A stretch of DNA of 64,000 nucleotides from contig NZ_BJDI01000013.1 of assembly GCF_005405065.1 (NCBI RefSeq), positions 1 through 64,000 on the forward strand, written 5' to 3'. Numbering within the stretch: the first letter of the stretch is position 1; every line of letters starts with the position of its first letter. The translations under genes and the position numbers were made by a program. This DNA comes from Lactiplantibacillus nangangensis. Lineage in GTDB: Bacteria; Bacillota; Bacilli; Lactobacillales; Lactobacillaceae. The notes below the pieces were generated by a model that made no database searches, was not told where the DNA came from, and saw nothing but the letters and a program-made list of their open reading frames with translations. Of this stretch, positions 5,926-51,610 are shown piece by piece.

Positions 5926-6086
5926 TTGCCGCCTGCCGGTTGGCTGCTAAAATGCTGGAACGCCATGGGCCATTTTGAAGCCAAAAGGCGGTCTTCAAAA
6001 CTGGCCTTGGCCTAAGTCCGAGCAGTCCACTCGCACTAAGGCCAACGACATGGCTGAGCATTTTAGCAACCAACCTCTCGGCTAAA
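5926..6086 (+). repeat. Branched palindromic element BE1
   Basis: Ends TTGCCG and CGGCTAA. Outer arms: GGTTGGCTGCTAAAATGCT (5939 on) and AGCATTTTAGCAACCAACC, interrupted by a conserved asymmetric internal loop (GGAACG opposite CTGAG). Inside are two hairpins: TTTTGAAG / CTTCAAAA with loop CCAAAAGGCGGT, and a GGCC-rich stem with loop GCAGTCCAC. Same architecture as BE2 to BE9. Confidence 0.8.
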
Positions 6087-6146
6087 TAATTGAACTAAAA
6101 ATAATCAATCATTAATTTTTTTAATAGCCGTTAATTAACGTCGGGC

Positions 6147-6273
6147 GGGCCAGAATTGGCTCAGTGGTGAAGTTTATCTTAGACGGTGATTTTCCGTCTT
6201 AGATAAAGCCCGGCTTGGAAGACCGCTCTTTGGCTTCCAAACGCGGCCACCACGTTCCAGCCAATTTTGGCCC
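6147..6273 (-). repeat. Branched palindromic element BE2 (core)
   Basis: Read on the minus strand: arms GGGCCAAAATTGGCT / AGCCAATTCTGGCCC, internal loop GGAACG / CTGAG, hairpin TTGGAAG / CTTCCAA with loop CCAAAGAGCGGT, and a long second hairpin around CGGAAAATCACCG. Same plan as BE1 with different stem sequence, and opposite orientation to it, 61 bp away. Lies just beyond the mleR stop codon. Confidence 0.8.
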
Positions 6274-6320
6274 AACCAGAGTGGTAATTTAAACCAACTT
6301 GCACCAAACGTAGGGACTCG

Positions 6321-7208
6321 TTAATCGGTTTCTAAGGCGCTGTGTAAAATTTCTAATAGTTTCAATTGGGTCGGCGTGAGAATATGTGATGTCCGATAGA
6401 CGATACTCGTAATAAATTCAGGTTGTTCATCATCGAGTAACTCTAACCGGACAACATTATCGTTGTAATGATCAACGACCGTAGTTAAAAAGCCAATCCC
6501 GACGTTTTCCGCAATCAGTTTCATTAAGACGTGGGTATCGTTAGAACGAAAGACGATATTGGGGCGAAAATGATTGCGCCGGGTGAGTTTATTAAAAGCA
6601 GTATTATGCACAAAGTTACTATTAAAGAATACAAAGTCTTCGTGACGTAATTCGCTGAAGTAGATTCGTTTGCGTTTGGCCAACGGATGATCACGTGACA
6701 CGAAAATGCTAAACGGCTGGCGGTCGAATTCTTCAGCCAACAACGTTTGATAGGAGAGGGGTTCAACGGATCCCAATAAGGCCATATCGACGCGACCATT
6801 ACGAACGGCTTCTCGTAAGGCGATTGAGCCACCTTCGATGGTCTGAATAGTTGCCAACATGTCGGCGGCCGATAATTTGGCCGCAATTTGTGGAAAATAG
6901 TGGTTTTCGATAATTGGGGGCAACCCTAAGACAATTTGCTGCTGGGTTAAATTCGTGATTTCTTGATGGGCAATCTTGAGTTGCCGCAAGATAATTTCGG
7001 CGTGTTCGGCGAGTTGTTCGCCGCTGGCAGTTGGCGTCAGGGCATTATGGACCCGGTCGCGGATAATTAATTTTGTATTGAATTCAGTTTCTAGTCGTTT
7101 AACGGCCGTGGTAATGGTCGGCTGACTGACTTTAAAAAAAGTCGCAACTTTTGAAAAACTTTTTTGCAAAATTAATTGATGAAAATAGTCTAAGTCTTTT
7201 GTATTCAT
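6321..7208 (-). CDS. mleR: LysR-family regulator of the malolactic genes
   Basis: 295 residues. N-terminal winged helix-turn-helix (about residues 1-60; FFKVSQPTITTAVKRLE) followed by a LysR substrate-binding domain of normal length. It is divergent from mleS with 219 bp between start codons, the classic layout of a LysR activator next to its target, hence MleR. By family knowledge it senses malate and activates mleS-mleP; that is inferred from context. AT-rich dyads in the shared intergenic region are the likely binding sites. Confidence 0.82.
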   Translation of the reverse strand: MNTKDLDYFHQLILQKSFSKVATFFKVSQPTITTAVKRLETEFNTKLIIRDRVHNALTPTASGEQLAEHAEIILRQLKIAHQEITNLTQQQIVLGLPPIIENHYFPQIAAKLSAADMLATIQTIEGGSIALREAVRNGRVDMALLGSVEPLSYQTLLAEEFDRQPFSIFVSRDHPLAKRKRIYFSELRHEDFVFFNSNFVHNTAFNKLTRRNHFRPNIVFRSNDTHVLMKLIAENVGIGFLTTVVDHYNDNVVRLELLDDEQPEFITSIVYRTSHILTPTQLKLLEILHSALETD

Positions 7209-7244
7209 TTTAACTCCTTTAAAACCAACGTTTGTTAGTACCTT

Positions 7245-7259
7245 ATAAATAATATTTAT
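7245..7259. promoter_or_regulatory. Candidate MleR operator
   Basis: ATAAAT and ATTTAT separated by AAT, a 15-bp dyad of the length typical of LysR sites, between the divergent mleR and mleS. Binding is not shown. Confidence 0.35.
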
Positions 7260-7427
7260 ATCATAGCACAGATTTGACTATAAGATTTGCTCGGCGCTAA
7301 ACTGTTGTTTGTCAATTGATAAGCGCAAGGCTTTGACCGAATGATGAGTCATACGATAGGGTATAGCCTGTTGGAGATTCAATTCGTTCACTTAACTTAT
7401 TAAACAAAAAATGGAGGAATTATAAAT

Positions 7428-9059
7428 ATGACTCAAACCGCTGATACAATTTTAAATAACCCATTTTTAAATAAAGGGACGGCGTTTACGAAAGCTGAAC
7501 GCCAACAATTAGGCTTAACTGGGACCTTACCAGCTGCCGTACAAACGATTGAAGAACAAACGACCCAAGCTTACGGTCAATTCCAAAGCAAGGCGACTCG
7601 GTTAGAAAAACGGATTTTCTTAATGAACTTGTTTAATGAAAACCGGACACTTTTCTACCACTTGATGGATCAACACGTGGTTGAATTCATGCCAATCGTT
7701 TATGATCCAGTGGTTGCTGATTCAATCGAACAATACAATCAATTATTCTTAGACCCACAAAACGCTGCGTTTGTTTCAGTTGATGCGCCTGAAGACGTAG
7801 AAGCAACCTTGAAGAACGCTGCTGAAGGCCGCGACATTCGCTTAGTCGTTGTGACTGATGCTGAAGGTATCTTAGGTATGGGCGACTGGGGTGTTAACGG
7901 GGTCGATATCGCCGTTGGTAAGCTGATGGTTTATACCGCTGCTGCGGGGATTGATCCTTCACAAGTCCTACCAGTTAGCATTGATGCTGGGACCAACAAC
8001 CAAAAATTATTGGACGACCCAATGTATCTTGGTAACCGTCACAAACGGGTTTATGGTGATCAATACTACGATGTCATCGACAAGTTTGTTGAAGCAGAAC
8101 AAAAGTTGTTCCCAGAATCACTTTTACATTGGGAAGACTTTGGTCGTTCAAACGCACAAGTTATTTTAGATAAATATAAAGATAAAATTGCGACCTTCAA
8201 TGATGATATCCAAGGGACTGGGATGGTCGTTTTGGCCGGAATCTTAGGCGCCTTGAACATCTCTAAGGAAAGCATCAAGGACCAAAAAATCTTATCATTC
8301 GGTGCTGGGACTGCCGGCATGGGGATCGCCAATCAAATTATGGATGAACTCATGCAAGCTGGTTTGACCGAAGCTGAAGCCAAACAACATTTCTATGCCG
8401 TTGACAAGCAAGGCTTGCTTTTCGATGATACCGAAGACTTGACGCCAGCTCAAAAAGAATTCACGCGTTCACGGAGCGAATTTAGCAATGCGGATGAGTT
8501 GACGAACTTGGAAGCCGTTGTCAAGGCTGTTCATCCAACTGTCATGATTGGGACCTCAACTCAACCAGGGACCTTTACAGAAAGCATCATCAAAGAAATG
8601 GCTGCCCATACTGATCGTCCAATCATTTTCCCATTATCAAATCCAACCAAATTAGCAGAAGCTAAAGCGGAAGATTTGATCAAATGGACTGATGGCCGGG
8701 CCTTAGTTGCGACTGGGATCCCTGCTGACGACGTTGAATACAATGGCGTCACTTATCAAATCGGGCAAGGTAACAATGCCCTCATGTACCCAGGACTTGG
8801 TTTTGGCTTGATTGCCTCAACCGCTAAAGTCTTAAACAGTGAAACGTTATCTGCGGCTTGCCATGCTTTAGGTGGCATCGTGGATACATCGAAGCCTGGT
8901 GCGGCAGTCTTACCACCAGTTTCAAAAATCACTGAATTTTCACAAAAATTAGCTGAAGTCGTCGCACAAAGTGTCCTCGACCAAAAGCTGAACAAAGAAC
9001 CAATCACGAGTGCCAAGCAAGCTGTTGCTGACATGAAGTGGGTTCCTGAATATAAATAA
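7428..9059 (+). CDS. mleS: Malolactic enzyme (L-malate to L-lactate and CO2)
   Basis: 543-residue malic-enzyme-family protein. Malate-site tyrosine segment MPIVYDPVV near residue 93, the lysine segment [13 protein letters not shown] near 165, acidic metal-ligand segment [11 protein letters not shown] near 258 and the NAD Rossmann motif GAGTAGMG near 291 are all present. GGAGG precedes the ATG by 10 bp. Length and the adjacent LysR gene and AEC transporter favour malolactic enzyme over a true NAD-malic enzyme; sequence alone cannot fully separate them. It decarboxylates malate in the cytoplasm, consuming a proton and sustaining pH and proton motive force together with MleP. Confidence 0.9.
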
Positions 9060-9124
9060 TTAGTGGTCGCCTGAGAGAAGCGATTTGGTTAATTAAAAAA
9101 AGTTGAAAGTGGGAATAAAAACTC

Positions 9125-10096
9125 ATGGCTGTTTTATGGAATTCGATCCAAAGCGTACTTGTGGTCGTTTTGATCATGGTGCTTGGATTCATCTTACGTC
9201 GTACTGGCTGGTTCGCAGATAGTTTTGCGGGAAATATTTCAAAATTTATTAAGAATATTGCTTTGCCAGCGTCAATCTTTGTGTCAGTATTAAGTCGTCT
9301 CACACGGGGACAATTAGGATCATTTTCAGGCTACTTAGCCTATGCTTTCATCGCCGTCATTATCGGTTACTTGATTGCCTTTGCTTTAGTTAAGATTATG
9401 AAGATTCGTCCCGGCCGTAAAGGGATCTTTATCAACGCGGTCGTCAACGCCAACACGATTTTCATCGGGTTACCTTTGAACATCGCATTATTCGGCGAAA
9501 AGAGTATGACTTACTTCTTAGTTTATTATATTGTGAATACCGTTTCGACTTGGGCATTTGGGGTCTTCTTGATTTCTAACGATGATCCAACGAAGCCAAA
9601 GGGTAAAACGCACAATAAGATCGACTGGAAGAAAGTTATCCCAATGCCATTAGTTGGGTTCTTAGTTGCCTTAGTCTTCTTATTGTTGAACATTCCAATC
9701 TTGAAGATTTCGTTCATTAACTCAACGTTAACCTACGTGGGTAACTTGGTCACACCACTCTCATTGATCTATATTGGGATCGTGTTAGCGGATGCCGGGT
9801 TAGGCAGTATCAAGTTTGATCGTGATACAGTCGTTGCATTGATTGGCCGTTTCATCCTGTCACCAATCGTCATGATCGCCGTGATCATGGTCGCTGGCAA
9901 CGTTGGGGCTAGCTTCCCAACCATGGCTTCACAAACGTTGATCGTGCAATCCGCAACGCCAATGTTGGCTGTCTTGCCGATTTTGGCGAACGAAGCGCAT
10001 GGAGATGTTGAATACGCGACAAACGTTGTGACAACGAGTACCGTGTTATTCATCATCGTTGTACCAATCTTGATGTCATTAATTCAATTTATCTAA
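9125..10096 (+). CDS. mleP: Malate/lactate transporter of the auxin efflux carrier family
   Basis: 323 residues, about ten membrane segments, AEC family. N-terminal half contains NANTIFIGLPLN and the C-terminal half QSATPMLAVLPILA, both typical of the discontinuous helices of this fold. It starts 65 bp after mleS with an AAAGTGGGA ribosome site and is followed by a terminator, so mleS-mleP form an operon. Expected role: malate uptake, possibly exchanged for lactate. The substrate is inferred from the neighbouring enzyme. Confidence 0.88.
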   Translation: MAVLWNSIQSVLVVVLIMVLGFILRRTGWFADSFAGNISKFIKNIALPASIFVSVLSRLTRGQLGSFSGYLAYAFIAVIIGYLIAFALVKIMKIRPGRKGIFINAVVNANTIFIGLPLNIALFGEKSMTYFLVYYIVNTVSTWAFGVFLISNDDPTKPKGKTHNKIDWKKVIPMPLVGFLVALVFLLLNIPILKISFINSTLTYVGNLVTPLSLIYIGIVLADAGLGSIKFDRDTVVALIGRFILSPIVMIAVIMVAGNVGASFPTMASQTLIVQSATPMLAVLPILANEAHGDVEYATNVVTTSTVLFIIVVPILMSLIQFI

Positions 10097-10110
10097 AATT
10101 AAAAAATTAT

Positions 10111-10148
10111 GAAAAAGGGCTTGCCGTTGAGTGGTGAGTCCTTTTTTG
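10111..10148 (+). terminator. Terminator of mleS-mleP
   Basis: AAAAAGGGCT / AGTCCTTTTTT stem-loop ending in a T-run, 14 bp after the mleP stop. Confidence 0.75.
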
Positions 10149-10334
10149 TTTCCAATTGGATTATTAGTTAAGAATTTTTGTTCAAAATAACTAATGATCG
10201 TTGAATCGCATAAGAACCCGCTTACAACCGCACTATTTTGAAATAATCGTTGGATTTGCTTGACTAATGGGCTGAAAATCAATAAAATTAACAACGTTGC
10301 ATTAATAAGAATTCAATTAGGAGGCCCTCATTTG

Positions 10335-11759
10335 ATGAAAGCATCACAGCGGTTACTGGTTAAGAAACCAGTTGACCCAGCAAACTTTAATAAAGGCGGT
10401 TTGGCAAAGTCTCTAGATGCCTTCAGCTTGACCATGATGGGCGTGGGCGCGATTGTTGGTTCTGGGATCTTTATCACTCCTGGGATTATTGCGGCCAAGT
10501 ACGCTGGGCCCGCGGCGATGCTGTCATTCGTGATTGCGGCCGTCGTTTGTTCGTTGGCGGCTTTATGCTATGCGGAATTTGCGTCCACGATTCCGTTAGC
10601 GGGGAGTGCCTATACTTATGTTTATACGGTTTTCGGCGAATTTTTGGCTTGGATCTTAGGCTGGTCGTTGATCTCGGAATATTTGTTTGCCGTTTCTTCG
10701 GTGGCAGTCAGTTGGTCCTCATATTTTCAAAATTTACTGAGTGGCTTTGGTATTAAGTTGCCGGAATTTTTATCGGCAGCTGCTGGAACTGCCGGTGTAC
10801 TGCATGCCGGTTTTAATTTAATTGCCTTTGTCGTTGTTTTAGCCATTTCATTATTATTAGTCGGTGGGGTTCAGGAGTCGACGAGAGTTAACTCGATTAT
10901 GGTCGTGGTCAAGATCATGGTGATTGTGCTATTTATTGGTGTTGCCATCTTCTTCGTTAAACCAGCTAATTTCCACCCATTTATGCCACATGGCTTTCAT
11001 GGACTAGTTAAAGGGGCGTCATTAGCGTTTTACGCTTATATTGGTTTTGACGCGGTCTCAACGGCTTCAGAAGAAGTTAAGAATCCTAAACGGGATATGC
11101 CGATTGGGATCATTGGGTCGTTGATTGTTGCTTCGATTCTGTACGTCGCCATGGCAGCAGTTTTGGTTGGGGTGGTTCATTACACGAAATTAAACGTTGG
11201 CGATCCAGTCGCCTATGCTTTGGCTGTGATTCACCAAAATTGGGCAGCTGGAATCGTCTCATTAGGGGCGGTCGTTGGGATGACTACCGTGCTCATCGTG
11301 ATGTTATATGGTGGGACGCGGTTACTCTTTGCGATTAGTCGTGATGGGCTATTACCAAAGGCCTTTCGTAGTTTGAGCCCACGCACTAAAGTTCCAGTCA
11401 AAAGTACTTGGATCTTTGGGATCATTGCCAGCGTCTTTGCGGCGGTTATTCCGTTGGATAAAATTGCCGAACTGGTCAATATTGGGACGTTATTTGCATT
11501 TGCGATGGTTTCAATTGGGGTTGTTTTTTTGCGTAAGCATGAAACGCTCCAGCAGATCAACAGCTCGTTCAAAGTGCCATTTTATCCAGTGCTACCAATC
11601 GTGTCATTCTTGGCATGTATTTACTTGATGTTAAACTTGCAGATCTTTACTTGGAAGATGTTTGGCATCTGGATCACGATTGGAATTATCATTTATTTTG
11701 TTTATAGTTATCGTCATTCACGGATTCGCGCACGCTTACGTGATGAAGAAGTTAAATAG
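10335..11759 (+). CDS. Amino-acid permease, APC superfamily
   Basis: 474 residues with about 12 membrane segments. The N-terminal motif GVGAIVGSGIFITPG is the unwound helix-1 substrate site of APC transporters, and GFDAVSTASEEVKNP is the helix-6 region, most like the cationic amino-acid transporter branch (YfnA-like). AGGAGG at 10319-10324 sets the start: ATG 10335, or possibly TTG 10332; the ATG-less extension to 10260 is not used. A 238-bp upstream gap carries an inverted repeat (TTCAAAATA / TATTTTGAA) but no T-box signature. Substrate not determined. Confidence 0.8.
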   Translation: MKASQRLLVKKPVDPANFNKGGLAKSLDAFSLTMMGVGAIVGSGIFITPGIIAAKYAGPAAMLSFVIAAVVCSLAALCYAEFASTIPLAGSAYTYVYTVFGEFLAWILGWSLISEYLFAVSSVAVSWSSYFQNLLSGFGIKLPEFLSAAAGTAGVLHAGFNLIAFVVVLAISLLLVGGVQESTRVNSIMVVVKIMVIVLFIGVAIFFVKPANFHPFMPHGFHGLVKGASLAFYAYIGFDAVSTASEEVKNPKRDMPIGIIGSLIVASILYVAMAAVLVGVVHYTKLNVGDPVAYALAVIHQNWAAGIVSLGAVVGMTTVLIVMLYGGTRLLFAISRDGLLPKAFRSLSPRTKVPVKSTWIFGIIASVFAAVIPLDKIAELVNIGTLFAFAMVSIGVVFLRKHETLQQINSSFKVPFYPVLPIVSFLACIYLMLNLQIFTWKMFGIWITIGIIIYFVYSYRHSRIRARLRDEEVK

Positions 11760-11767
11760 CGTACTGA

Positions 11768-11794
11768 AACGAGTCTTGCGGGGCTCGTTTTTTG
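11768..11794 (+). terminator. Terminator of the amino-acid permease gene
   Basis: AAACGAG / CTCGTTTTTT stem-loop, 8 bp after the stop. Confidence 0.75.
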
Positions 11795-11814
11795 GTGTTT
11801 CAACTTTCTCGACA

Positions 11815-11823
11815 TGCTATAAT
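11815..11823 (+). promoter_or_regulatory. Extended -10 promoter of the ECF S-component gene
   Basis: TGCTATAAT, a perfect extended -10 element, 40 bp before the start codon; no clear -35 box. Confidence 0.5.
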
Positions 11824-11862
11824 GAGTTCTATTCTTAACGGCGAATCCATGGAGGTGTGCGG

Positions 11863-12453
11863 ATGCAACGACGGTCAAAGGCTTATCATATTAGTATTTT
11901 AGCGGTATTGATTGCGATTGTGATCAGTCAAAATGTGGTGCCATTTTTCGGATATATTCCAATTCTTGGACTGAGTTTAACCACGATTCATGTGACGGTG
12001 ATCATTGCTGCGGTTGTCCTCGGACCCAAAGATGGGGCCATCGTCGGCGGTGCTTGGGGGCTAATTGACTGGGCGCGGGCGTTTATCGCGCCGACAAGTG
12101 CCTTAGCGCCACTAGTCTTCACGAATCCCTTAGTCTCAGTGTTACCGCGAATCTTGATTGGCGTGGTCGCCGGCTGGCTTTTTATTGCATTGAAGCAACG
12201 CGCTAAACCAGCTGTGGGGTTGACTCTCGCTGGTGTTGCCGGGTCACTGACAAATACGGTTCTGGTACTCGGGCTGATTGGCACGCTATATCGCCATGCG
12301 GCGGCTGGCTTTTACCAAGTTGATTTGAGCAAATTAATGCCATACTTACTGACAGTGGTGGGGACAAATGGGATTCCAGAAGCAATCTTGGCTGGAATTG
12401 TCGTTCCATTGATTGGGGTACCATTATTACGTTATCGACAGCGCAAAGGGTAA
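11863..12453 (+). CDS. ECF transporter S-component, probably vitamin uptake
   Basis: 196-residue membrane protein with about five or six helices, resembling substrate-specificity subunits of energy-coupling factor transporters. The stretch LSLTTIHVTVIIAAVVLGPKDGAIVGG and NPLVSVLPRILIGVVAG resemble PanT-type (pantothenate) S-components, though the vitamin is an inference. Start at ATG 11863, six bases after GGAGGT; the GTG at 11857 directly abuts that site and is unlikely. No EcfA or EcfT genes are nearby, so it would share a common ECF module encoded elsewhere. Confidence 0.75.
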   Translation: MQRRSKAYHISILAVLIAIVISQNVVPFFGYIPILGLSLTTIHVTVIIAAVVLGPKDGAIVGGAWGLIDWARAFIAPTSALAPLVFTNPLVSVLPRILIGVVAGWLFIALKQRAKPAVGLTLAGVAGSLTNTVLVLGLIGTLYRHAAAGFYQVDLSKLMPYLLTVVGTNGIPEAILAGIVVPLIGVPLLRYRQRKG

Positions 12454-12478
12454 TTTTTCAGAAAAATAATGAGACACT

Positions 12479-12526
12479 AAAAAGGTCGGTCATTACTTGT
12501 GATTATAAAGTAATGACCGACCTTTT
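12479..12526. terminator. Bidirectional terminator
   Basis: AAAAGGTCGGTCATTACTT pairs perfectly with AAGTAATGACCGACCTTTT, a 19-bp stem. It ends the S-component gene on one strand and the small gene at 12560-12733 on the other. Confidence 0.9.
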
Positions 12527-12559
12527 GATTAAATTCAGGTGATTGCAAACGTTGAGACA

Positions 12560-12733
12560 TTAAACCGGTTGGACTTGTTTTTGACTGATGACAACTCTGT
12601 CATGATACTTATCCACAATTTCTGGATCAGTACTTTCAAAGGTGATCAGATAAGAATTTGTGTAGGCTTTTGCAATTTCGCCAGTGAAGGACTGTCCTTC
12701 AAGTGTAAATGTCACTTTAGTGCCGATTTCCAT
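12560..12733 (-). CDS. Small DUF2187/YkvS-like protein
   Basis: 57 residues: MEIGTKVTFTLEGQSFTGEI, then AKAYTNSYLITFESTD and a polar tail ending QVQPV. The pattern of a start 'GxKVxF', a 'TGEI' turn and 'YxNSxLI' matches small DUF2187 (YkvS-like) beta-barrel proteins as I remember them. A modest GAAGAGG site lies 8 bp before the ATG at 12733. It ends 34 bp before a perfect shared terminator, which supports a real transcription unit. Function unknown. Confidence 0.65.
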   Translation of the reverse strand: MEIGTKVTFTLEGQSFTGEIAKAYTNSYLITFESTDPEIVDKYHDRVVISQKQVQPV

Positions 12734-19619: not shown

Positions 19620-19778
19620 TTGCCGCCTACCGGTCGGTTCGTTTAGGGCTGGAACGCTGTGAATCGTTTTCGAGCCAAAATGCGGTCTCGAAAATCGATT
19701 TTTGACTAACCGCGGCAGTTCACCGCGCTAAGTCAAATGCCACGGCTGAGCCCTAACCGAACCGACCTCACGGCTAAA
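19620..19778 (+). repeat. Branched palindromic element BE3
   Basis: Ends TTGCCG and CGGCTAA. Arms GGTCGGTTCGTTTAGGGCT / AGCCCTAACCGAACCGACC with internal loop GGAACG / CTGAG; hairpin TTTTCGAG / CTCGAAAA with loop CCAAAATGCGGT; second hairpin CGCGG CAGTTCAC CGCG. Arm sequence differs almost entirely from BE1 but stays paired. Sits between the convergent cydD and SWIM genes. Confidence 0.8.
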
Positions 19779-28860: not shown

Positions 28861-29057
28861 TTGCCGTCTCCGGTCGCCACTGATGGCATGCGGTCGTGGG
28901 ACCGGAGTGAGCCTTAGGAGCGGTCTCACTCCTCGCCCGAAACAGTTGCAAAAACCGCAATTGTCCCGGCCGGTCCGTGGCGTAAGGCTGGCTAACGCCA
29001 ACCAAACGCCACCATCACGACCGATGCCATCAGCGGCGACCTCCGACTAGATAACTG
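28861..29057 (+). repeat. Branched palindromic element BE5
   Basis: Arms GGTCGCCACTGATGGCAT and ATGCCATCAGCGGCGACC enclose three hairpins: GGAGTGAG / CTCACTCC with loop CCTTAGGAGCGGT; ACAGTTGC / GCAATTGT; and a GTGGCGT / ACGCCAC stem. GGACCGG and CCGGTCC close the first two. Confidence 0.8.
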
Positions 29058-29122: not shown

Positions 29123-29320
29123 TTGCCGCTTCCGGTTGTTGTTGATAACATGCGGGCGAAGGATCGGAGTGAGCCTGAAGAGCGGTCTTACTCCTCGCCC
29201 AGAACAATTGCAAGAACCGCAATTGTCCTGGCCGGTCCGTGGTGTAAGACCGGAAAATCGCCGGTCTTACACCACCCACACGCCCGATGCTATCAACAAC
29301 AACCTGCAGCTCGTTAACTG
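29123..29320 (+). repeat. Branched palindromic element BE6
   Basis: Starts TTGCCGCTTCCGG, ends CTGCAGCTCGTTAACTG. Arms GGTTGTTGTTGATAACAT / ATGCTATCAACAACAACC; hairpins GGAGTGAG / CTTACTCC (loop CCTGAAGAGCGGT), ACAATTGC / GCAATTGT, and the 13-bp perfect GGTGTAAGACCGG / CCGGTCTTACACC with loop AAAATCG. Best-preserved copy; 65 bp after BE5. Confidence 0.85.
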
Positions 29321-29883
29321 TTTTGAGCGATTGGTCAGTTGTTTTAGATTTAGCAGAGTTAGTCAAAACTGGTATGTAGTGTCTACATGATTTATCGACT
29401 AAGCTTGTTGGACAATTCAACGACTCGGTTTGCTGGCTTTGAATTACCGTGTAAGACCATACTTGTTTTTCATATAGGCACCGATTCTGACCTAATGGGA
29501 GACACTGTTATTAGTCTCATGATGACGGTAGCTTAAAACTTGTTTCTGAGTTTAGCCATTAAATGTCGAAAATCATACCAGTACAAAACTATGGTTTGTA
29601 ATTTCAACATAGTCTACAAAATCTGATTACACACGGAAATCAGATGATGTAGGCGACGTATTTTGTTTGAGGATATCAGATTGTTGCTGATTGATTGAGG
29701 TTTAAAGATCAATTGAAAAAAGACACTCATTTGGACAACGTAAGTTCATGAGATTGTCATAATTAACTTAGGTTTGGTTGAAGGTGTCAATGAGAAAACA
29801 GCGATGGCTCTGAAGTTAGTGGTTAAGTTTTTTGAACTGACTAGCTAGAAATTTAACTAAAATTTGCAGAGTGGGCAAACATA
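29321..29883. other. Non-coding stretch between BE6 and BE7
   Basis: No open frame of note on either strand and no ribosome site. One modest hairpin near 29618-29660 (AATCTGATT / AATCAGAT). It looks like decayed sequence between repeats. Confidence 0.4.
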
Positions 29884-44485: not shown

Positions 44486-44508
44486 TATTTTTAAGCCTCA
44501 TTTAGCGA

Positions 44509-44541: not shown

Positions 44542-44652
44542 TTATAGGCTTTTTTTCGAAAAAAACAAACTGATGGGTGACGTTTACCCTAACTAACTTA
44601 ATAAAATAGGTTATAATAAGGTTTGAATGAATTTTGAGGGTGGGGAAATAAC

Positions 44653-45210
44653 ATGGTTAAAAGAAGAACGTTAACTCAAGCGAAGGTGTTGGCAACAGCC
44701 AACCAATTAATTGAAGCAAATGGCTTGAACGGGTTAACTATCCGTGACTTGGCCGTGGCCTTAGATGTCCGGCCACAGTCAATTTATAATTATGTTGATA
44801 GTTTAAGCGATTTGTTGGATCAAGTTGGCTTACAATTTGTTCAAGGGGTTTCAGATCGCTTAACAGAGCAATTAAACAATGCAAGTAAAGAAGAAAAGCT
44901 GATGGTCTTTGCGCAAGAATTTCGTGATGCCTGCAAACGGCATGTGGGGTTAGCCCCACTATTACTGAGTTTGACAGATTCAGTTAAGAGTCCGAAAACG
45001 CAAAAAGCCTTGATCAAGTTATATCAAGATATGTTTAGACCATTACAGTTAGATGATAGCTCACGGGTTGAAAACACGTTGTATCGGTCAACCTTATTCG
45101 GGTTTATTATTCAGGAGATTGGCGGTTTCTTCACGTTGTCGCCAGCAGAACTGGATACTCGGTTTACCCAAGTGATGCAGCTTGCAATCGATCAAGAAAA
45201 TGTGAAATAG
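44653..45210 (+). CDS. TetR-family repressor of the adjacent exporter
   Basis: 185 residues. N-terminal helix-turn-helix (about 10-55: GLTIRDLAVALDVRPQSIYNYVDSLSDLLDQ) and a C-terminal helical ligand domain (GFIIQEIGGF) like the WHG/TetR_C subfamily. GAGGGTGGGG ribosome site. Expected to repress the divergent MFS-DUF4811 operon via the palindrome at 44509-44541 until a substrate binds. Confidence 0.85.
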   Translation: MVKRRTLTQAKVLATANQLIEANGLNGLTIRDLAVALDVRPQSIYNYVDSLSDLLDQVGLQFVQGVSDRLTEQLNNASKEEKLMVFAQEFRDACKRHVGLAPLLLSLTDSVKSPKTQKALIKLYQDMFRPLQLDDSSRVENTLYRSTLFGFIIQEIGGFFTLSPAELDTRFTQVMQLAIDQENVK

Positions 45211-45215
45211 TGCTT

Positions 45216-45260
45216 AAAAGGAATCGAAACACCATTTTGTGGTATTTCGATTCCTTTTTG
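45216..45260. terminator. Bidirectional terminator
   Basis: AAAAGGAATCGAAA / TTTCGATTCCTTTTT, shared by the tetR gene and the tiny gene on the other strand. Confidence 0.85.
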
Positions 45261-45267
45261 GTCAATG

Positions 45268-45393
45268 CTAATTGTGATGTTTGTGATAATAATGATAAAC
45301 GAGGATTAACAAAATTCCGATTACGCAGACGCGAATCAGCCAGACCGTCAATAGCAAAGTAAAAATGAATTTTAACCAGATAATTAGTCTCAT
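45268..45393 (-). CDS. 41-residue single-pass membrane peptide
   Basis: Begins MRLIIWLKFIFTLLL and continues TVWLIRVCVIGILLILVYHY, ending YHKHHN: one long hydrophobic helix with a short basic/His tail. AAAGG lies about 10 bp before the ATG and a perfect shared terminator lies 8 bp past the stop, which together support expression. No family recognised; it resembles small hydrophobic regulatory or toxin-like peptides only in general character. Confidence 0.45.
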   Translation of the reverse strand: MRLIIWLKFIFTLLLTVWLIRVCVIGILLILVYHYYHKHHN

Positions 45394-45425
45394 GGCTAAC
45401 TAACCTTTCTGAAAGAGAGTTTGAA

Positions 45426-46268
45426 ATGATGATTGATGAAGCAACTTTTCTATCCAAACTTGGAGTAACGCTTAGACAGAGCCGAAAAGCTAAAAGACTA
45501 ACACAGAAACAGGTTGCTGAAGGGATTTGTGTACAGTCACTGATCAGTGCAATTGAGCATGGTCAATATTTGCCCAATGCGATGGTCTTTGCCCAGATTT
45601 GTCAGCGGCTGGGCCTATCGATGGATCAAGCGGTGCTGGCGCGCTATCCGAAGATTGAGGCGCAGCAGACATTAAATAATGAAATTGAACGACTTTGTAA
45701 CCAGCATGCTTACCGTGCATTAGCAACTTATTTATCACAACCAGCGTTGCAAGACCAGTTATTGACAGATCATGACTTGGCCATTTTTTATTATTATCGT
45801 GGTGTTGCCAACTTTCAGACACGGCAATTCGCTGAGGCCCAAAAAGATTTGAGGTTGAGTTTAGACTTAGTGGCCGCCGATGATTCGCTACGACCATTAA
45901 TTTTAAGCGCCAGTGGTTGCTTGAATGCCCAAAAAGATTACTGGCGACTCGCGCTGAGGCAGTTTGAGCAAGCACAAACTTTAGTATCTGTTTTACCGTA
46001 TGATGAAAATTTCAATTGTGTGGCCTATCAACTTGGGCTATGTCAGTTTAAAGCAGGCCAATATGTCGCGGCAAAACAGACATTACAAGCCGGCGTCCAA
46101 TTAATCACAACACAGCAGTCTCATTACTTGTTGGCAGACACCCTAGTTTTGTTAGCAGCATGTCTGGATCAACTAGGGGATCACGCAACTGCCAAAAATG
46201 TTCAAGCAGAGGGACAGATGTTGGCGACACTGTTTAAATTACAGTTGTATCAATTTGACGAGGAATAG
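45426..46268 (+). CDS. XRE-TPR transcriptional regulator
   Basis: 280 residues. N-terminal Xre helix-turn-helix (about 10-65: LRQSRKAKRLTQKQVAEGI, then SAIEHGQYLPNAM) followed by TPR-like helical repeats (about 95-280), the layout of Rgg/PlcR-type regulators that read short peptides. No obvious peptide gene precedes it, though the 41-residue membrane peptide gene is divergent 33 bp away. Its 3' end overlaps the 3' end of the convergent dehydrogenase gene by 19 bp. Confidence 0.75.
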   Translation: MMIDEATFLSKLGVTLRQSRKAKRLTQKQVAEGICVQSLISAIEHGQYLPNAMVFAQICQRLGLSMDQAVLARYPKIEAQQTLNNEIERLCNQHAYRALATYLSQPALQDQLLTDHDLAIFYYYRGVANFQTRQFAEAQKDLRLSLDLVAADDSLRPLILSASGCLNAQKDYWRLALRQFEQAQTLVSVLPYDENFNCVAYQLGLCQFKAGQYVAAKQTLQAGVQLITTQQSHYLLADTLVLLAACLDQLGDHATAKNVQAEGQMLATLFKLQLYQFDEE

Positions 46269-47179
46269 GCCAATAGGGTTCGCCCACGCCGTCCAGGTAA
46301 TTGTGCTGTGTGATAGGCTTGGCGGACGTCATGGAAATTGACGGTTTCAGCGATGGCCGCTTTAAGTTCACCAGTGGCGAGTTGGTCGAGCAATTGCCGA
46401 TAAGTTCTTGGCCAAATTGGACCACTGATGAAGTGGAAACTTTGCGTCGTGAGTAATGGTTGCCATTGGGGCAGTGCCAGCGAATAAACTTGAAGTTGTG
46501 GTCGATTGGCTGCGAGACGATTCAATAAGTCGGGGTTACCAACGGTGTCTAATAAGCGAGTGTCGTTTGGAATAGTCGTCAATTGTGGCGTCAAAGCTGT
46601 TGTATAGTCAATAGTTGCTGTCGCACCAAGTTCTTGAAGCCAAGTACGATTGCTTGGTCGCGTTAAGGCAATGACATTAGCGCCGAGCTGGTGGCTTAAC
46701 TGGACGAGGTAGGTGCCGACACCACCCGCAGCTCCAGTGATAATCACAGTCATTCCGGGCCGAATGTGCGCGGCTGAGATGAGTTTAATTGCAGCATCAG
46801 CGCCTCCAATTAGCGTGGTTGCGGCGGCGAGTGAAACTCGTTTTGGAATTGGTAAGAGTAATGGGGAAGGTCTCAAAAGGTTTTGTTCACGAGCAGATCC
46901 GTGAAAATTGACAGTCAAGACGCGTTGACCAATCAAAGATTGCTGACGAAGGCGACCAGCATCAGTAACGATTCCAGTCAATCCATAGCTGGGTACATAT
47001 GGTGGTCTTGCGGGGTTGAGACTGGTCAAATTACCCGTTGCACTGCGCCAATCCCAAGGCAGAACTGGAGTATAAGCAGTTTGGATTTTAATTTCGGTTG
47101 CGGTTGGTTGTTGTTGTGGCAGATTAGCGATTTCAAGTCCACTAATGCCAGTAAAAGACGTTTGTCGAATGACTTGCAT
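46250..47179 (-). CDS. Zinc-independent quinone-oxidoreductase-like MDR protein
   Basis: 309 residues, medium-chain dehydrogenase/reductase. GroES-like N-terminal domain and Rossmann domain with ITGAAGGVGTYLVQL near residue 147; no catalytic zinc cysteine set, as in QOR-type NADPH quinone reductases. ATG 47179 follows GGAGG with 8 bp spacing; the frame runs further up to 47314 without a site. Tail-to-tail overlap with the XRE-TPR gene means mutual antisense of the 3' ends. Confidence 0.8.
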   Translation of the reverse strand: MQVIRQTSFTGISGLEIANLPQQQPTATEIKIQTAYTPVLPWDWRSATGNLTSLNPARPPYVPSYGLTGIVTDAGRLRQQSLIGQRVLTVNFHGSAREQNLLRPSPLLLPIPKRVSLAAATTLIGGADAAIKLISAAHIRPGMTVIITGAAGGVGTYLVQLSHQLGANVIALTRPSNRTWLQELGATATIDYTTALTPQLTTIPNDTRLLDTVGNPDLLNRLAANRPQLQVYSLALPQWQPLLTTQSFHFISGPIWPRTYRQLLDQLATGELKAAIAETVNFHDVRQAYHTAQLPGRRGRTLLAYSSSN

Positions 47180-47352
47180 GTGATGGCCTCCTGTAGTTGA
47201 TGTCTTATAGGATAGCGGTCTAAGTTCAAATGATAAAATCAGAATACTGATAATTGGCGAAGCCTCAAATTTTAGCAATTTTGAGGCTTTTTTACGACAA
47301 TTACTTTGACACACACAGTAATTGGTGGTAAATTATGGTTATTGAAATTACT

Positions 47353-47363
47353 ATGTGACACAT
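47353..47363. promoter_or_regulatory. Candidate PadR operator
   Basis: ATGTGACACAT, a perfect 11-bp palindrome carrying the ATGT/ACAT half-sites usual for PadR regulators, 27 bp before the padR-like start. Suggests autoregulation. Confidence 0.5.
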
Positions 47364-47390
47364 AATACTTAATTTGAAAGGAAGGTCAGC

Positions 47391-47750
47391 ATGCAACCAG
47401 AGATTTCGAAAGAAACGATCCGCGGCCATACGACAACCATCGTTTTGAATATCCTGAATCAGGGCGACAGTTATGGTTATGCCATTGCGAAGACCATTAA
47501 GACCCTGAGTCAGGGGGCTTATGAAATTAATGAAGCGACGTTGTACACGGTCTTTCGCCGACTTGAGAAAAATGGCGAGATTACAAGTTATTGGGGCAAT
47601 GAAACGCAGGGTGGCCGGCGCAAATATTATCAAATTTCGGCGCAAGGTCAAAAAACGTTAGCTCATAATATCGAAGAATGGCATTTTGCCAAGCAAGTGA
47701 TTGATGATTTGATTTTAGGGAGGATTGACGCAGATGTCAGAAAAAATTGA
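47391..47750 (+). CDS. PadR-family transcriptional regulator
   Basis: 119 residues, the short PadR form. Winged helix with YGYAIAKTIKTLS, INEATLYTVFRRLEKNGEI and GGRRKYYQISAQGQ. AAAGGAAGG ribosome site 5 to 8 bp before ATG 47391. Overlaps the following DUF4097 gene by 17 bp; such PadR plus membrane/adhesin-like pairs are common in Firmicutes and the regulator probably controls its own operon. Confidence 0.85.
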   Translation: MQPEISKETIRGHTTTIVLNILNQGDSYGYAIAKTIKTLSQGAYEINEATLYTVFRRLEKNGEITSYWGNETQGGRRKYYQISAQGQKTLAHNIEEWHFAKQVIDDLILGRIDADVRKN

Positions 47751-49056
47751 ACAATTAGTGGCCATGCGGCTGAATACTTATTTTAAAACGCAAACGATGA
47801 CGCCAGCTTTAACTGAATTAAAAACTGAATTGGCGACAGATCTAAATGAGGCTGCTAATGACAAGGCCACTAACGGACTGGATTCTGAAGCGGCGGTCGC
47901 GGAAGCTTTTAGTGATTTTGGTGACATTAATGCGTTGATCCAGCAAATCAATACGGAAAATGGTAATGAAACCAACTTGCATGCCCATCATGTTGTGATG
48001 GATGATGAGGGGATTGAGATTGATGGTGGTGAGACGTTAAAAGTCAATTCTGATGGGATTTCAATCAACAATGGTGCGATTAAAGCCGACCATGATGGAC
48101 TTAAACTGGGAAAGTTGGTCATCAATGGCGATGGCATTAATCTTAACGATCAACCAGTACCAGCACCGGACTTTGGCACTCCCAGCCAACCGTTAAATTT
48201 AGCAGGGGAATACCATGATAGTTTGAATTTAGTGAATGAAAAACGTATTGCCGTAGCCGACATCACAGATTTATCGATCAGCTATCGGTCTGCCCGTGTT
48301 AAGGTATTGCCGACGGTTGGCGGCGAAGATGAAATTATTGTGCGTGAATATATGAATCACAATAACGCGTCGTATAATGCGACGGTGACGCAACAAGGCT
48401 CAGCGCTAAGTATTGAGCAGGGTAAGGTGCCATTTCTCATCCCTTTACGGGTTCATGTTCAAGTGCTGGTGCCAGCTAATTATGCCGGCAATTTGAAATT
48501 AGCAAGTAGTTCGGGAACCGTTCTGATGGCTGGCTTGGCTCAGTTGGGAGTCGTTAATATCCGAATTACAAGTGGTAGTTCTAAATTAGACAGTTTGCAG
48601 GCGCAAGCGCTCAGTGCGGATGTCGTTTCAGGAAACTTAGTGATGACCCAAGTTCAAGTTGCTGAACAACTTGGGATGCTTGTCAAAAGTGGTCGGTTAA
48701 AGTTATCGGCGGTGCAAGCTGGCCAATATACGGTGACAGTCACTAGTGGCAGTATTCAAGGCGTGCAATTAATTGGCGGTGGTAGTTGGACGGCTAAATC
48801 GGGGACGATGAAGCTCGCATTTTCGAAATTGACTAGTGATTTGAATCTAAGCGATAAGAGTGGCTCGATTAAATTTAGCTTGCCACGGGATGCTAGTTAT
48901 CGCTATGAACTGGAAGCACGAAGTGGACGCGTCGTAGCGCCCAACAACGCACAACCGGAACACATTGCGGATGGGTATCAAACGGGACAAGTTGGTACGA
49001 CGCCGACCTATACGGTTCAAGGGCGGACGACTTCTGGCTCAATTTATCTTTATTAA
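47734..49056 (+). CDS. DUF4097 beta-helix protein with N-terminal helical domain
   Basis: 440 residues. Residues 1-75 are a helical HAAS/DUF1700-like segment (EAAVAEAFSDFGDINALIQQI), about 85-145 contain repeats of 'DxxGIxIxxG', and about 170-440 form a long beta-repeat (DUF4097-type; TSGSSKLDSLQAQ, SGRLKLSAVQ, SGSIKFSL). No signal peptide or membrane helix is evident, so it may act in the cytoplasm or at the membrane through partners. GGGAGG precedes ATG 47734. Role unknown; envelope-stress sensing is a guess from PadR context. Confidence 0.7.
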   Translation: MSEKIEQLVAMRLNTYFKTQTMTPALTELKTELATDLNEAANDKATNGLDSEAAVAEAFSDFGDINALIQQINTENGNETNLHAHHVVMDDEGIEIDGGETLKVNSDGISINNGAIKADHDGLKLGKLVINGDGINLNDQPVPAPDFGTPSQPLNLAGEYHDSLNLVNEKRIAVADITDLSISYRSARVKVLPTVGGEDEIIVREYMNHNNASYNATVTQQGSALSIEQGKVPFLIPLRVHVQVLVPANYAGNLKLASSSGTVLMAGLAQLGVVNIRITSGSSKLDSLQAQALSADVVSGNLVMTQVQVAEQLGMLVKSGRLKLSAVQAGQYTVTVTSGSIQGVQLIGGGSWTAKSGTMKLAFSKLTSDLNLSDKSGSIKFSLPRDASYRYELEARSGRVVAPNNAQPEHIADGYQTGQVGTTPTYTVQGRTTSGSIYLY

Positions 49057-49059
49057 ACT

Positions 49060-49106
49060 CAATCGCGTTGCAGAAATTGACTGAAATTTCCGCAACGCGA
49101 TTTTTC
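49060..49106 (+). terminator. Terminator of the PadR-DUF4097 operon
   Basis: AATCGCGTTGC..AAATT / AATTT..GCAACGCGATTTTT, just after the stop. Confidence 0.85.
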
Positions 49107-49194
49107 TGAAAATAACCGTGAGTAATTCTTTTCCGTCACTGTGCTAAAAGGCTATAATCAAAATAACAGCTAAACGGAGATTGGGGATCTTGAA

Positions 49195-50520
49195 ATGGGG
49201 ATTAGTGAACAACAATTGATTAACCGCCTAGTACCTGCACTTTTACGGATACGGCAAACGAAAATTTATCGCGTGATCCAACGAACAGTGATGCTCACTT
49301 TTCCGTTTGTCTTGATTGGGAGTTTCAGTCAAATCATTCAAGTGACATTACTGACGAAAACGGGGTTTTTAGCCAGTATTTTTCATTTATCAACTTGGGT
49401 ACCGTACTATAAATATTTACATTATCCGTTTGATAACTTGACTAATTTGACATTGGATAGTGTGGCAATTGTTGCGGCATTTGGGGCGGCTAAGTATTAT
49501 GCCAAAGCTTATCACCGTGATGATCAGTTGGCGGGCATCAGTGGGGCAATTGCGCTGCTACTAGTGGCGTATCAATATCCAGATCAAACGCAAGTTGACT
49601 TTAATCCGGTCTTGTTGGGGACGAATGGCCTAACGAGTGCCATTTTGATTGGGGTTGTGATTGGCATCCTGTTTCGCTGGTTTGGTCGACCTGCTGATGT
49701 GCCGCGTCAATCACACACGACCCAGATTTTAGACCGAACGTTTGCGTCTTTGTTACCGATGACAATCGGCTTTTTACTCGCAGTTGGCGTGGGCTTAGTC
49801 TTAAATTGGTTCATGTTATTCGATTATTCAGAACAGACTTTGGATCAATTGCAAAAAATTGCCACGTCGAGCCACAACGGCTTGATGACATTTGCAATGG
49901 CTGGCTTGACGCTGCTCATGGAATTACTTGGGTTGGCTGGACCGTTTCAACAACGTTTGCTGGCGAATACCCCTTCGATGACAACTAATTTGAATTATGC
50001 GCTCAGTCACCATTCAGCTTACCATGTGCCATATCCTTACACGTCCCATACGTTGTACGACGCTTTTGGGACTTTCGGCGGCACTGGGATGCTACTGGCA
50101 CTAATCATTACAATCATTATTAGCAGTCATAACCATAATTATCATGTCGTGGCGCGTTGGAGCCTCGTTCCAGCATTATTCAATAGTAATGGCCCAATGA
50201 TGACCGGATTACCAGTCTTATATAACCCAATTTATGCGATTCCGTTCATTTTAGCGCCACTCGTGAATATGTCGGTGGCGGCATTCGCCATCTGGTTAAA
50301 GTGGTTGCCGCCAATGGTTTATCCGGTACCGTTGGGGACACCAGGGCCTTTGATTGCTTTCATTGGGACAAATGGTAATCTGGTAGCGTTGTTGATTGGG
50401 TCGTTGGATCTGGTCATTTCGGTATTGATTTATTTGCCATTCATGCGGTTAGCGGAAGCTACTTTACATGCTGCTCATGAACAGAGTTTACGATTGGAGA
50501 TGACCGGCGATGATGCATAA
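49195..50520 (+). CDS. Orphan PTS EIIC component (lactose/cellobiose type)
   Basis: 441 residues with about ten helices, EIIC fold of the glucose/cellobiose superfamily. Characteristic stretches are RTVMLTFPFVLIGSF near residue 28, SLVPALFNSNGPMMTGLPVL near 325 and a PxxxPVPLGTPGP region near 385. No EIIA or EIIB domain and no such gene nearby, so it needs partners encoded elsewhere or has a non-transport role. Overlaps the following DUF915 gene by 11 bp. A homologue begins at 62785. Confidence 0.8.
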   Translation: MGISEQQLINRLVPALLRIRQTKIYRVIQRTVMLTFPFVLIGSFSQIIQVTLLTKTGFLASIFHLSTWVPYYKYLHYPFDNLTNLTLDSVAIVAAFGAAKYYAKAYHRDDQLAGISGAIALLLVAYQYPDQTQVDFNPVLLGTNGLTSAILIGVVIGILFRWFGRPADVPRQSHTTQILDRTFASLLPMTIGFLLAVGVGLVLNWFMLFDYSEQTLDQLQKIATSSHNGLMTFAMAGLTLLMELLGLAGPFQQRLLANTPSMTTNLNYALSHHSAYHVPYPYTSHTLYDAFGTFGGTGMLLALIITIIISSHNHNYHVVARWSLVPALFNSNGPMMTGLPVLYNPIYAIPFILAPLVNMSVAAFAIWLKWLPPMVYPVPLGTPGPLIAFIGTNGNLVALLIGSLDLVISVLIYLPFMRLAEATLHAAHEQSLRLEMTGDDA

Positions 50521-51388
50521 TTTGTTAAAACGTCGGCGTCGCAATAGTTTAGGGGTCCTTATCTTGGTTGGCCTGTTTCTGGTTGCCTTGATTTGGCCAG
50601 CTTATCAGTGGACGCAGGCAAATGTAAAATCGATGGCTGGCCGGCATGATTCGCGACTGTCACCGGTGATCTTAATTCCAGGCAGTAGCGCCACGCAGAA
50701 CCGGTTTGACCGGCTGGTGACGCAATTAAATAAAGCCGACAAACAGCGCCATAGCTTGATCAAATTAACAGTCAAAACGGATGGTACGATCAAGTCTTCG
50801 GGAACCCTACGACCACGTGATAATGAACCTTTTATTGTCGTGGGTTTTGAAAATAATAAAGATGGTTATAGCAATATTCAAAAACAAGCCCGCTGGTTTT
50901 CCTTGGCCTTTAAACAATTAGCGCACCGCTATCAATTTAATAATTTCAAGGCGATAGGACATTCAAATGGTGGCCTGGTTTATACTTATTTCTTTGAACA
51001 TTATTTCACGCGTGAGGATATTACGGTCAAAAAATTAATGACGATTGGGTCACCATATAACTTTTCAGAGGCCAATCTCAGTCACAAAACGCAAATGCTA
51101 GCAGATTTCATCAAGTATCGTGACCGATTACCGAAAAAGTTAGCTGTGTTCTCGGTCGCTGGCACCGAAAATTATGATTCTGATGGGCTTGTCCCAGCGC
51201 GCAGTGTGGAGGCTGGCAAGTACGTTTATCAAGGTCAGGTGAAGCATTACACGGAAGTGACGGTTACGGGGGATAACGCCCAACACTCTGATTTGCCGCA
51301 GAATAAGCAAATTGTCAGTCTGATTCAGGAGTACATCTTGGATAGTAAGAAGAAGACCCCGACGAAAGCGTTGATGGGTGCTAATTAA
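50510..51388 (+). CDS. Membrane-anchored DUF915 alpha/beta hydrolase
   Basis: 292 residues: basic N-terminus (KRRRRN), one signal-anchor helix (about 13-30) and an alpha/beta hydrolase domain. Nucleophile S152 in GHSNGG, oxyanion region ILIPGSS near 55, aspartate in YDSDGLVP and histidine in NAQHSDLP complete a plausible triad. Family DUF915 members are cell-surface esterases or lipases of uncertain substrate. Coupled by overlap to the EIIC gene, suggesting surface hydrolysis linked to transport. Confidence 0.8.
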   Translation: MMHNLLKRRRRNSLGVLILVGLFLVALIWPAYQWTQANVKSMAGRHDSRLSPVILIPGSSATQNRFDRLVTQLNKADKQRHSLIKLTVKTDGTIKSSGTLRPRDNEPFIVVGFENNKDGYSNIQKQARWFSLAFKQLAHRYQFNNFKAIGHSNGGLVYTYFFEHYFTREDITVKKLMTIGSPYNFSEANLSHKTQMLADFIKYRDRLPKKLAVFSVAGTENYDSDGLVPARSVEAGKYVYQGQVKHYTEVTVTGDNAQHSDLPQNKQIVSLIQEYILDSKKKTPTKALMGAN

Positions 51389-51418
51389 GATGGGTTAGTA
51401 ATTAAGGATAGGCGATGA

Positions 51419-51610
51419 TTGCCGCTTCCGGTCGTTGTTGATAACATGCGGCCGAGGGACCGGGTCAAGCCTGAAGAACGTCTTGACCCTCGCCCGGAAG
51501 CCTTGCATAGCCCACAAGTCTCCCGGCCGGTCCGTGGTGTAAGACCGGAAAAGCACCGGTCAAACGCCACCATCACGGCCGATGCTATCCACAACGACCT
51601 ACAGCTAGTC
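51419..51610 (+). repeat. Branched palindromic element BE9
   Basis: Starts TTGCCGCTTCCGG, ends CTACAGCTAGTC. Arms GGTCGTTGTTGATAACAT / ATGCTATCCACAACGACC; hairpin GGGTCAAG / CTTGACCC with loop CCTGAAGAACGT; third hairpin ACCGGAAAAGCACCGGT. Between the convergent DUF915 and gluconokinase genes. Confidence 0.85.

Follow-up and report, generated by a model that had tools for sequence, protein, structure and literature searches.

In an ordinary MITE it is the end repeats that are conserved, RUP is moved in trans by an insertion sequence (IS), and BOX is composed of boxA, boxB and boxC units. REP/BIME sequences have been read as DNA hairpins, REPs going with a Y1 transposase, while ERIC and EFAR of Enterococcus faecalis are palindromic intergenic repeats of 100-200 bp, single palindromes without a paired-module design. 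HEARO, the IscB-associated RNA, occurs as structured copies without an ORF, in high number.

For the stretch of 64,000 nucleotides of Lactiplantibacillus nangangensis analysed here (the window), an earlier note had claimed nine intergenic palindromic elements. We found all nine, with ends (model limits) within about 15 bases of those it gave, and neither of our two models found a further copy in the window. The elements split into two families of sequence and fold, A (193 positions) and B (161 positions), the A copies being matched by the B model as well (E 1e-18 to 1e-10). Two of the B modules belong to a type-2 MITE, in the order left end GCTTGGTGCTAGTTGAAA, B (+), 47-bp A/T-rich spacer, B' (-) and right end TTTAAACCAACTTGCACCAAACGT. 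Bit scores below are from the B model (R1) or the A model (R2).

5898..5907, no strand: target-site duplication, left copy, 10 bp, AGGGACTCGT
5908..6311, no strand: type-2 MITE, 404 bp, two facing B modules between end repeats
5926..6086, + strand: B module, R1 181.7 bits
6134..6287, - strand: B' module, convergent partner of 5926, R1 114.8 bits
6312..6321, no strand: target-site duplication, right copy, 10 bp, AGGGACTCGT
19620..19778, + strand: B module, R1 160.8 bits
19886..20000, - strand: shortened A module, convergent partner of 19620, R2 40.1 bits, E 1.5e-6
28861..29051, + strand: A module, R2 207.7 bits
29123..29314, + strand: A module with type-1-like sequence upstream (by eye), R2 201.8 bits
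29880..30045, - strand: B module, R1 138.3 bits
41915..42105, + strand: single A module, R2 206.7 bits
51419..51609, + strand: single A module, R2 209.3 bits

The AGCC...GTCT hairpin loop, claimed for all but the shortened copy, is seen in 8 of 9, and GGAACG with CTGAG, claimed for four, is present in exactly 5926, 6134, 19620 and 29880. The same type-2 element stands at other places in the genome, for example C3:69082, C8:101806, C14:55111 and C17:2125.

That no named family fits agrees with our searches, as Rfam at gathering score gave one tRNA only for the whole window and, at E up to 1, no match for three module loci. The modules are palindromic and intergenic like ERIC and EFAR, from which they differ by being paired and are set apart by description; they share with HEARO the high number of structured copies that lack an ORF but, unlike it, have no Rfam match and no RNA-like wobble tolerance. 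As far as the accessible part of PMC10969869 describes IS-derived MITEs, the units resemble them in being short, intergenic and without a transposase gene, in their end repeats and target duplications, and in a type-1 end repeat common to autonomous IS4-family ISs, but differ in that two large branched modules recur in several genera and in element types that differ in their ends. Like pneumococcal BOX, RUP and SPRITE, in the accessible part of PMC3049150, they are small interspersed repeats present in many copies in a Lactobacillales genome; they are set apart from these by description, the B model having matched only its own family in the order search. Intergenic palindromes in inverted pairs are a likeness to REP/BIME with RAYT (PMC3733652, in part), although REPs measure 20-40 bp there and these modules are far longer (A 193, B 161 positions). 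In the accessible portions of the open-access literature on Lactobacillus MITEs, palindromic or intergenic repeats, IS4, EFAR and BOX we found no description of them; in the accessible part of PMC2267715 the one mention of Lactobacillus is L. johnsonii, in a table.

Facing modules in MITE-like units

In the 2.9-Mb genome we retained 179 places, 90 and 89 from the two models, eight of them weak (45 bits or less), which at model length amount to 31.7 kb or about 1.1% of the genome; these were kept by hand from 112 R1 and 122 R2 rows after removal of opposite-strand shadows and A/B cross-hits. The opposed pairs pointed out earlier for several copies turned out to be an instance of a genome-wide rule. 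Neighbours within 1 kb comprised 46 +/-, 0 -/+, 2 +/+ and 2 -/- arrangements, opposed neighbours at this distance converging in 46/46 (p 3e-14), and at 1-2 kb there were one +/-, one +/+ and one -/+. Among the matches listed for other genomes, 14 pairs, belonging to other genera or to further species of the genus, were convergent, as were three weaker ones, and none under 1 kb was divergent. Parvovirus-like hairpin transfer was considered only: it would flip modules, and divergent pairs under 1 kb were not seen in the genome. We rejected pairing of a unit's two modules with each other, the two same-unit pairs compared (81.9 and 86.8% identity) being not clearly above other B pairs (77.8-86.3%).

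The B model matches 66 of 251 Lactobacillaceae genomes, in 13 of 40 genera (up to 11 candidates scored per genome, strict filters), and 20 of 345 genomes in the order-level search, all within its own family (up to 8 candidates, strict filters). An A-model match is absent in 6/21 species of the genus, three of which have B-model matches. Plasmids of L. plantarum, L. pentosus and L. salivarius carry modules, with no gene listed under them in a plasmid gene table that is incomplete; the window MITE had no plasmid match and the G015 unit no phage match. Among viral contigs, 27 fit the type-2 end pattern. A core pattern was fitted by 23 viral contigs, none with a B module at E 0.001.

The suggestion of a dispersed, MITE-like element is borne out by end repeats, target duplications and the absence of units in relatives. 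The type-1 unit, about 540 bp, has the end repeats AAAGGTTGAAA in common with an IS4-family IS, and the repeats of both ends were found in 17 of the 19 copies examined in genome G001. Seventeen type-1 units measure 332-540 bp between repeats and are, like the 404-bp type-2 unit of the window, too short for a transposase gene. Flanking words of at least 8 bp are shared in 10/17 type-1 units against 0/272 mismatched pairings (a shared word of 8 bp being absent in 7/17), and in 4/9 type-2 units against 0/72 controls (absent in 5/9). Type-2 end repeats occur at 9 places, two being deletion derivatives; internal-deletion derivatives without modules exist, and in long-spacer units the end repeats are faint (by eye), duplications being seen in types 1 and 2 only.

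In G001 the same type-1 repeat bounds an IS of about 1.56 kb, flanked by AGATAGGAG, whose transposase (457 aa) matches NCBIfam NF049925, IS4 family, at 460 bits against a cut-off of 250; a second such IS, in G004, has flanks that share only 5 bases. These two genomes hold the known autonomous ISs with a matching end repeat, all for type 1. IS4_4 was found in only 5 of the 21 genomes in the genus and is missing from that of the window, which counts against it as the mover of most units today. Three IS loci were searched for modules and had none, so its transposase can do without one. REP/RAYT-like mobility, raised as an option before, is not supported: the Y1 transposase PF01797 has 0 matches in this genome and was found in 5 of 14 control genomes.

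On balance we lean slightly towards reading the nine elements as modules of MITE-like non-autonomous transposons, with the modules acting as folded DNA. A unit would consist of an end repeat, a folding module, a spacer, a second module facing the first and another end repeat, and transposases encoded at other places would copy it or move it in trans; for type 1 the end repeat is that of an IS4-family IS present in sister species, and copies carry target duplications.

Covariation and the wobble test

The claim that stem pairing is kept despite sequence change held for both families, in alignments of chosen loci (not all 179 places) that were fitted to the model structure and hence lean towards it. 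For B (72 modules) 96.2% of 3901 cells pair, both sides have changed in 41 of 55 pairs, and covariation scores 0.512, compared with 0.144 after shuffling and at most 0.077 in slid controls; for A (73 distinct modules) the corresponding values are 96.0%, 35 of 64 pairs, and 0.224 against 0.099 shuffled and at most 0.051 slid. In neither family did any of 500 shuffles reach the score. Copies from other genomes keep GGAACG in 37/42 and AGCC..GTCT in 36/42; the fold is shared across genera, and the shape of a module is conserved far better than its sequence.

Strong covariation and conserved loops would suit a structured RNA of the + strand, riboswitch-like or non-coding, which we nevertheless hold to be extremely improbable: the modules face each other regardless of the direction of neighbouring genes, the three loci searched at E up to 1 lack an Rfam match, and G.T is not clearly commoner than A.C in any of the four alignments on the reported strand. 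The G.T:A.C cells number 38:77, 56:102, 145:139 and 35:81, against 24:0 in 20 tRNAs of the same genome, and events mapped on trees give G.T 171 vs A.C 239. G.T-majority columns were excluded (1 in alignment A3, 2 in A4, 0 in A5, 1 in A7), and A7 holds the first 42 of 48 rows, other species of the genus included. Own-genome tRNAs were taken as control because a set of 60 named loci had yielded just 4 tRNAs; the control uses 20 of 30 loci (33 tRNAs found), 9 being unparsed, 8 of them near contig ends, and 1 low-scoring, and its anchor score slightly favours G.T.

An RNA of the - strand, for example a structured leader of outward transcripts starting in the spacer, would be in keeping with the excess of A.C over G.T on the + strand, about 2:1 in 3/4 sets, which equals G.U over A.C on the - strand, and with B modules facing a gene start in 44/74 cases. 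We regard it as quite unlikely, given that the ratio is far from the 24:0 of tRNA (p 1e-7 to 6e-4, rough values as the cells share ancestry) and is 139:145 in one set, wobble being favoured on that strand by at most 2.3:1, that outward promoters are not enriched (34 spacers, 68 directions, mean percentile 0.53), and that single-stranded - strand DNA could yield the same weak bias. Hairpin-templated strand switching, a mutational process that would keep palindromes perfect without selection, is to our judgement very unlikely. The missing RNA-like strand preference and the B tree, with 231 double against 128 single changes, agree with it, but in A the relation is reversed (90 vs 187 and 150 vs 262), and such switching would erase the internal loops and the loop mismatch, yet GGAACG and AGCC..GTCT are kept at the frequencies given above (37/42 and 36/42).

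The modules show no RNA-like tolerance of G.U, and their fold is apparently kept as DNA, not RNA; where the earlier note had proposed RNA or single-stranded DNA, the RNA part is not supported and folded single-stranded or extruded DNA is the better fit. If the modules belong to MITE-like transposons, as we favour, they may be kept because they act as folded DNA, as one-strand hairpins or cruciforms, and the GGAAC/TG internal loop, the bulged G and the AGCC/GTCT loop could be contact points for a putative fold-reading protein, which would belong to the transposition machinery or to the host.

Matching sites in related species

Occupied and empty sites, whose comparison had been advised for strains, could be compared between species, and some matching sites lack the whole unit. 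At six places of the genome, picked for the much shorter stretch found there in relatives, modules are missing in L. pingfangensis or L. xiangfangensis, cleanly at two, and the genome of the window in turn lacks one type-1-like unit that L. pingfangensis has. The scan of genome contigs gave at least 90 stretches, of which 69 were used and 10 unused, while 11 from unrelated bacteria, without an A module, were excluded from the comparison.

The convergent A..B arrangement at 28861 also occurs at that site in L. pingfangensis (L264 5395-5585 +, 6031-6198 -), where the orthologue of B 29880 has 85.5% identity over aligned columns (rank 1 of 10), the counterpart of A 28861 comes only 12th among 50 by similarity, and A 29123 has no counterpart. 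Three B orthologues are 84.4-88.6% identical, each rank 1 of 10, with 3-5 double-compensated pairs in a folding comparison that cannot count A.C, as folding leaves such columns unpaired. The C20 spacer pieces have a similarity score near the shuffled level, but between B 29880 and the gene that follows some similarity to L264 remains (score 5 vs -23 ± 8 shuffled). B modules persist at three orthologous sites, with most similarity gone from the DNA beside them. A modules at sites that seem to match rank 12, 30, 33 and 10 of 50 and are not each other's closest relatives, so that constraint in place is seen for B only.

Conservation of B modules in place between species, with the spacer not conserved, would also be expected of a BIME-like site serving the host, its paired hairpins kept for supercoiling, as a boundary or for the nucleoid, and only spread by transposition. 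Gene context points the same way: A is turned towards the 3' end of a co-directional gene in 56/67 cases, and 12/21 AB units stand between two genes of one direction, A beside the end of the leading gene and B beside the start of the following one, the reverse order occurring in 0/21. This position bias may, however, only mirror tolerated insertion sites, and patchy presence speaks for dispensability, with an A-model match absent in 6/21 species of the genus, a B-model match absent in 185/251 family genomes (strict filters) and units absent at matching sites in relatives; we consider a host site unlikely. Read as parts of MITE-like transposons, units with B modules could stay long at one site, the modules being conserved while the spacer changes freely.

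We put forward only tentatively, and with some doubt, that the Lactobacillaceae possess an undescribed machinery, of transposon or host, which would read facing branched DNA hairpins, one per strand, in at least 13 genera, and would maintain selection on the fold in MITE types whose ends are unrelated. The usual inference from covariation to RNA seems to fail for these modules, and the repeat is a clear test case for separating RNA-level from DNA-level covariation. If a protein reading the folded DNA exists, it would represent a new kind of folded-DNA recognition, and would then be of practical interest for genome stability and for the engineering of food lactobacilli.

Fold and covariation of the modules

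A DNA search of the genome under study (2.90 Mb in 39 contigs), with one copy of each type as query, found 43 places for module family A and 37 for family B. Covariance models built from 24 (A) and 20 (B) copies returned 122 and 112 rows, respectively, from which opposite-strand shadows and A/B cross-hits were taken out by hand, leaving 90 (B) + 89 (A) = 179 module places, 8 of which score 45 bits or less. The model places in the window are exactly the nine elements listed in the earlier note.

The outer pairs of the B fold are TTGCCG/CGGCTA. Inside them come a long stem whose sequence varies freely, an internal loop with GGAAC facing TG, a short stem and finally two hairpins, of which the first ends in AGCC..GTCT. 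The A fold has the same outer pairs, followed by a long stem with a single bulged G and three hairpins. Pairing was found in 96.2% of cells among 72 B copies, with double changes in 41 of 55 pairs, and in 96.0% of cells among 73 distinct A copies, with double changes in 35 of 64 pairs; these pairing figures were matched by 0/500 shuffles, and the signal was lost when partners were slid by 1-3 columns. This bears out the earlier proposal that stem pairing is kept despite sequence change. When mapped on trees, double changes exceed single ones in B (231:128) and are fewer than single ones in A (90:187 and 150:262). A purely mutational origin of the pairing is argued against by the preservation of loops and mismatches as well as stems.

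A strand selected as RNA is expected to tolerate G.U and not A.C. On the + strand, once columns with a G.T majority are excluded, the G.T:A.C cell counts are 38:77 for B, 56:102 for A, 145:139 for A copies from named loci and 35:81 for other genomes, and tree-mapped changes from a standard pair gave 25:58, 55:84 and 91:97 (pooled 171:239, p 0.0009). The structured RNA that had been offered as an option is thus disfavoured, since none of the four alignments has the RNA-like G.T excess seen in 20 tRNAs of the same genome (24:0). The opposite strand reaches a ratio of at most 2.3:1, which again differs from tRNA. The pairing is therefore maintained in the DNA itself, or else on behalf of a - strand that is weakly preferred. 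We infer that the modules function as folded DNA.

Mobile units and their arrangement

Units of type 1 (about 540 bp, IS4-family ends) and type 2 (404 bp) are MITEs by design, and for both the mobile-unit reading is well shown: the MITE-like element suggested earlier is upheld by end repeats, shared flanking words and the absence of units at some of the relatives' sites. In genome G001, 17 of 19 copies examined sit in a 332-540 bp unit bounded by AAAGGTTGAAA repeats, and full-length units hold an A module and a facing module of a third type. Their flanks share words of at least 8 bp in 10/17 units vs 0/272 mismatched pairings. The same repeat bounds an IS of about 1.56 kb in G001, with a 457-aa transposase of the IS4 family (NCBIfam NF049925), and another IS in G004; no module was found at the G001 and G004 IS loci searched. 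Just inside the left end of the G001 element (L312:1927-3494, = G001:C1:64426-65993), a putative strong intrinsic terminator faces incoming transcription. The strand split of A modules also seemed uneven between the halves of the large contig G001:C1.

The type-2 unit at window 5908-6311 has other ends, holds two B modules and is flanked by a perfect 10-bp duplication, AGGGACTCGT. Internal-deletion derivatives of type 2, with most of both modules gone, occur at L064:231-359 (about 130 bp), which retains a perfect 10-bp duplication ATAACAGACT, and at L004:1345-1430 (about 90 bp).

Of the 50 neighbours within 1 kb in the genome under study, 46 converge, 2 are ++ and 2 --, and there is no divergent case; 14 chosen pairs from other genomes, and 3 weaker ones from the same listing, are likewise convergent. 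The spacers are either 24-47 bp long or, for the most part, 190-430 bp; lengths of 107, 565 and 861 bp occur once each, and the gap in type-1 units can be 15-25 bp. In L. pingfangensis, an A module lies inside the spacer of a B-B unit (L251:2921-3114), and window 29123-29314 shows similar nesting.

Enough flank was available for 145 of the 179 modules. Among the 67 A modules with a called upstream gene, 56 face the end of a co-directional gene; among B modules, 44 of 74 face the start of a gene. In 12 of the 21 AB units the neighbouring genes are co-directional and A sits at the end of the first one; another 6 units have convergent neighbours and 3 have divergent ones, and the reverse order occurs in 0/21. 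By eye, many copies lie 12-40 nt behind a terminator.

Occupied and empty sites in relatives

Stretches of the genome were set against 8-kb loci from L. pingfangensis, L. xiangfangensis and one MAG. The proposed comparison of occupied and empty sites found modules missing in the relative at six places (five pairs, one single B), selected because the corresponding stretch in the relative is far shorter. Two absences are clean: C8:118123-118654, and C22:13243-13864, where the flanking genes are separated by 25 nt in L. pingfangensis and by 681 nt in this genome. The other four sites (L228, L238, L242, L272) hold 86-148 bp of unrelated DNA in the relatives, a pattern that precise absence, excision and later turnover would fit equally. 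Conversely, L. pingfangensis has a type-1-like unit that this genome lacks.

At C20:22455-23081 both B modules occupy the same positions in L. pingfangensis (84.4 and 88.6% identity, each rank 1 of 10), where an A module lies within the spacer; the two spacer pieces nevertheless score near the shuffled level (-159 vs -160 +- 5 and -14 vs -32 +- 10 for shuffles). The window B module at 29880 has an orthologue 85.5% identical (rank 1 of 10), and some similarity persists in the stretch from this module to the next gene (score 5 vs -23 +- 8 for shuffles). A modules at sites occupied in both species rank 12, 30, 33 and 10 of 50, so the A copies probably arrived later or inserted anew.

Distribution across the family

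The A model matches in 15 of 21 genus genomes and the B model in 66 of 251 family genomes (13/40 genera); in an order sample, B matched 20 of 345 genomes, every one in this family. IS4_4, the transposase of type-1 ends, was found in 5 of the 21 genus genomes, 4 above the cut-off, and in that search not in the genome under study. Among plasmids, 25 records match the unit of genome G015, and the B model finds a module in 4/4 of those examined; no listed gene lies beneath these four.

Plasmid modules found by the B model
L352:3040-3213, L. salivarius UCC118 pSF118-44
L353:2569-2731, L. plantarum PC520
L354:2534-2709, L. plantarum TMW 1.277
L355:2521-2682, L. pentosus BGM48

The unusual part is the interior of the units, where facing branched modules occur in units with different ends, across genera, and retain their fold while the sequence changes, in a DNA-like manner.
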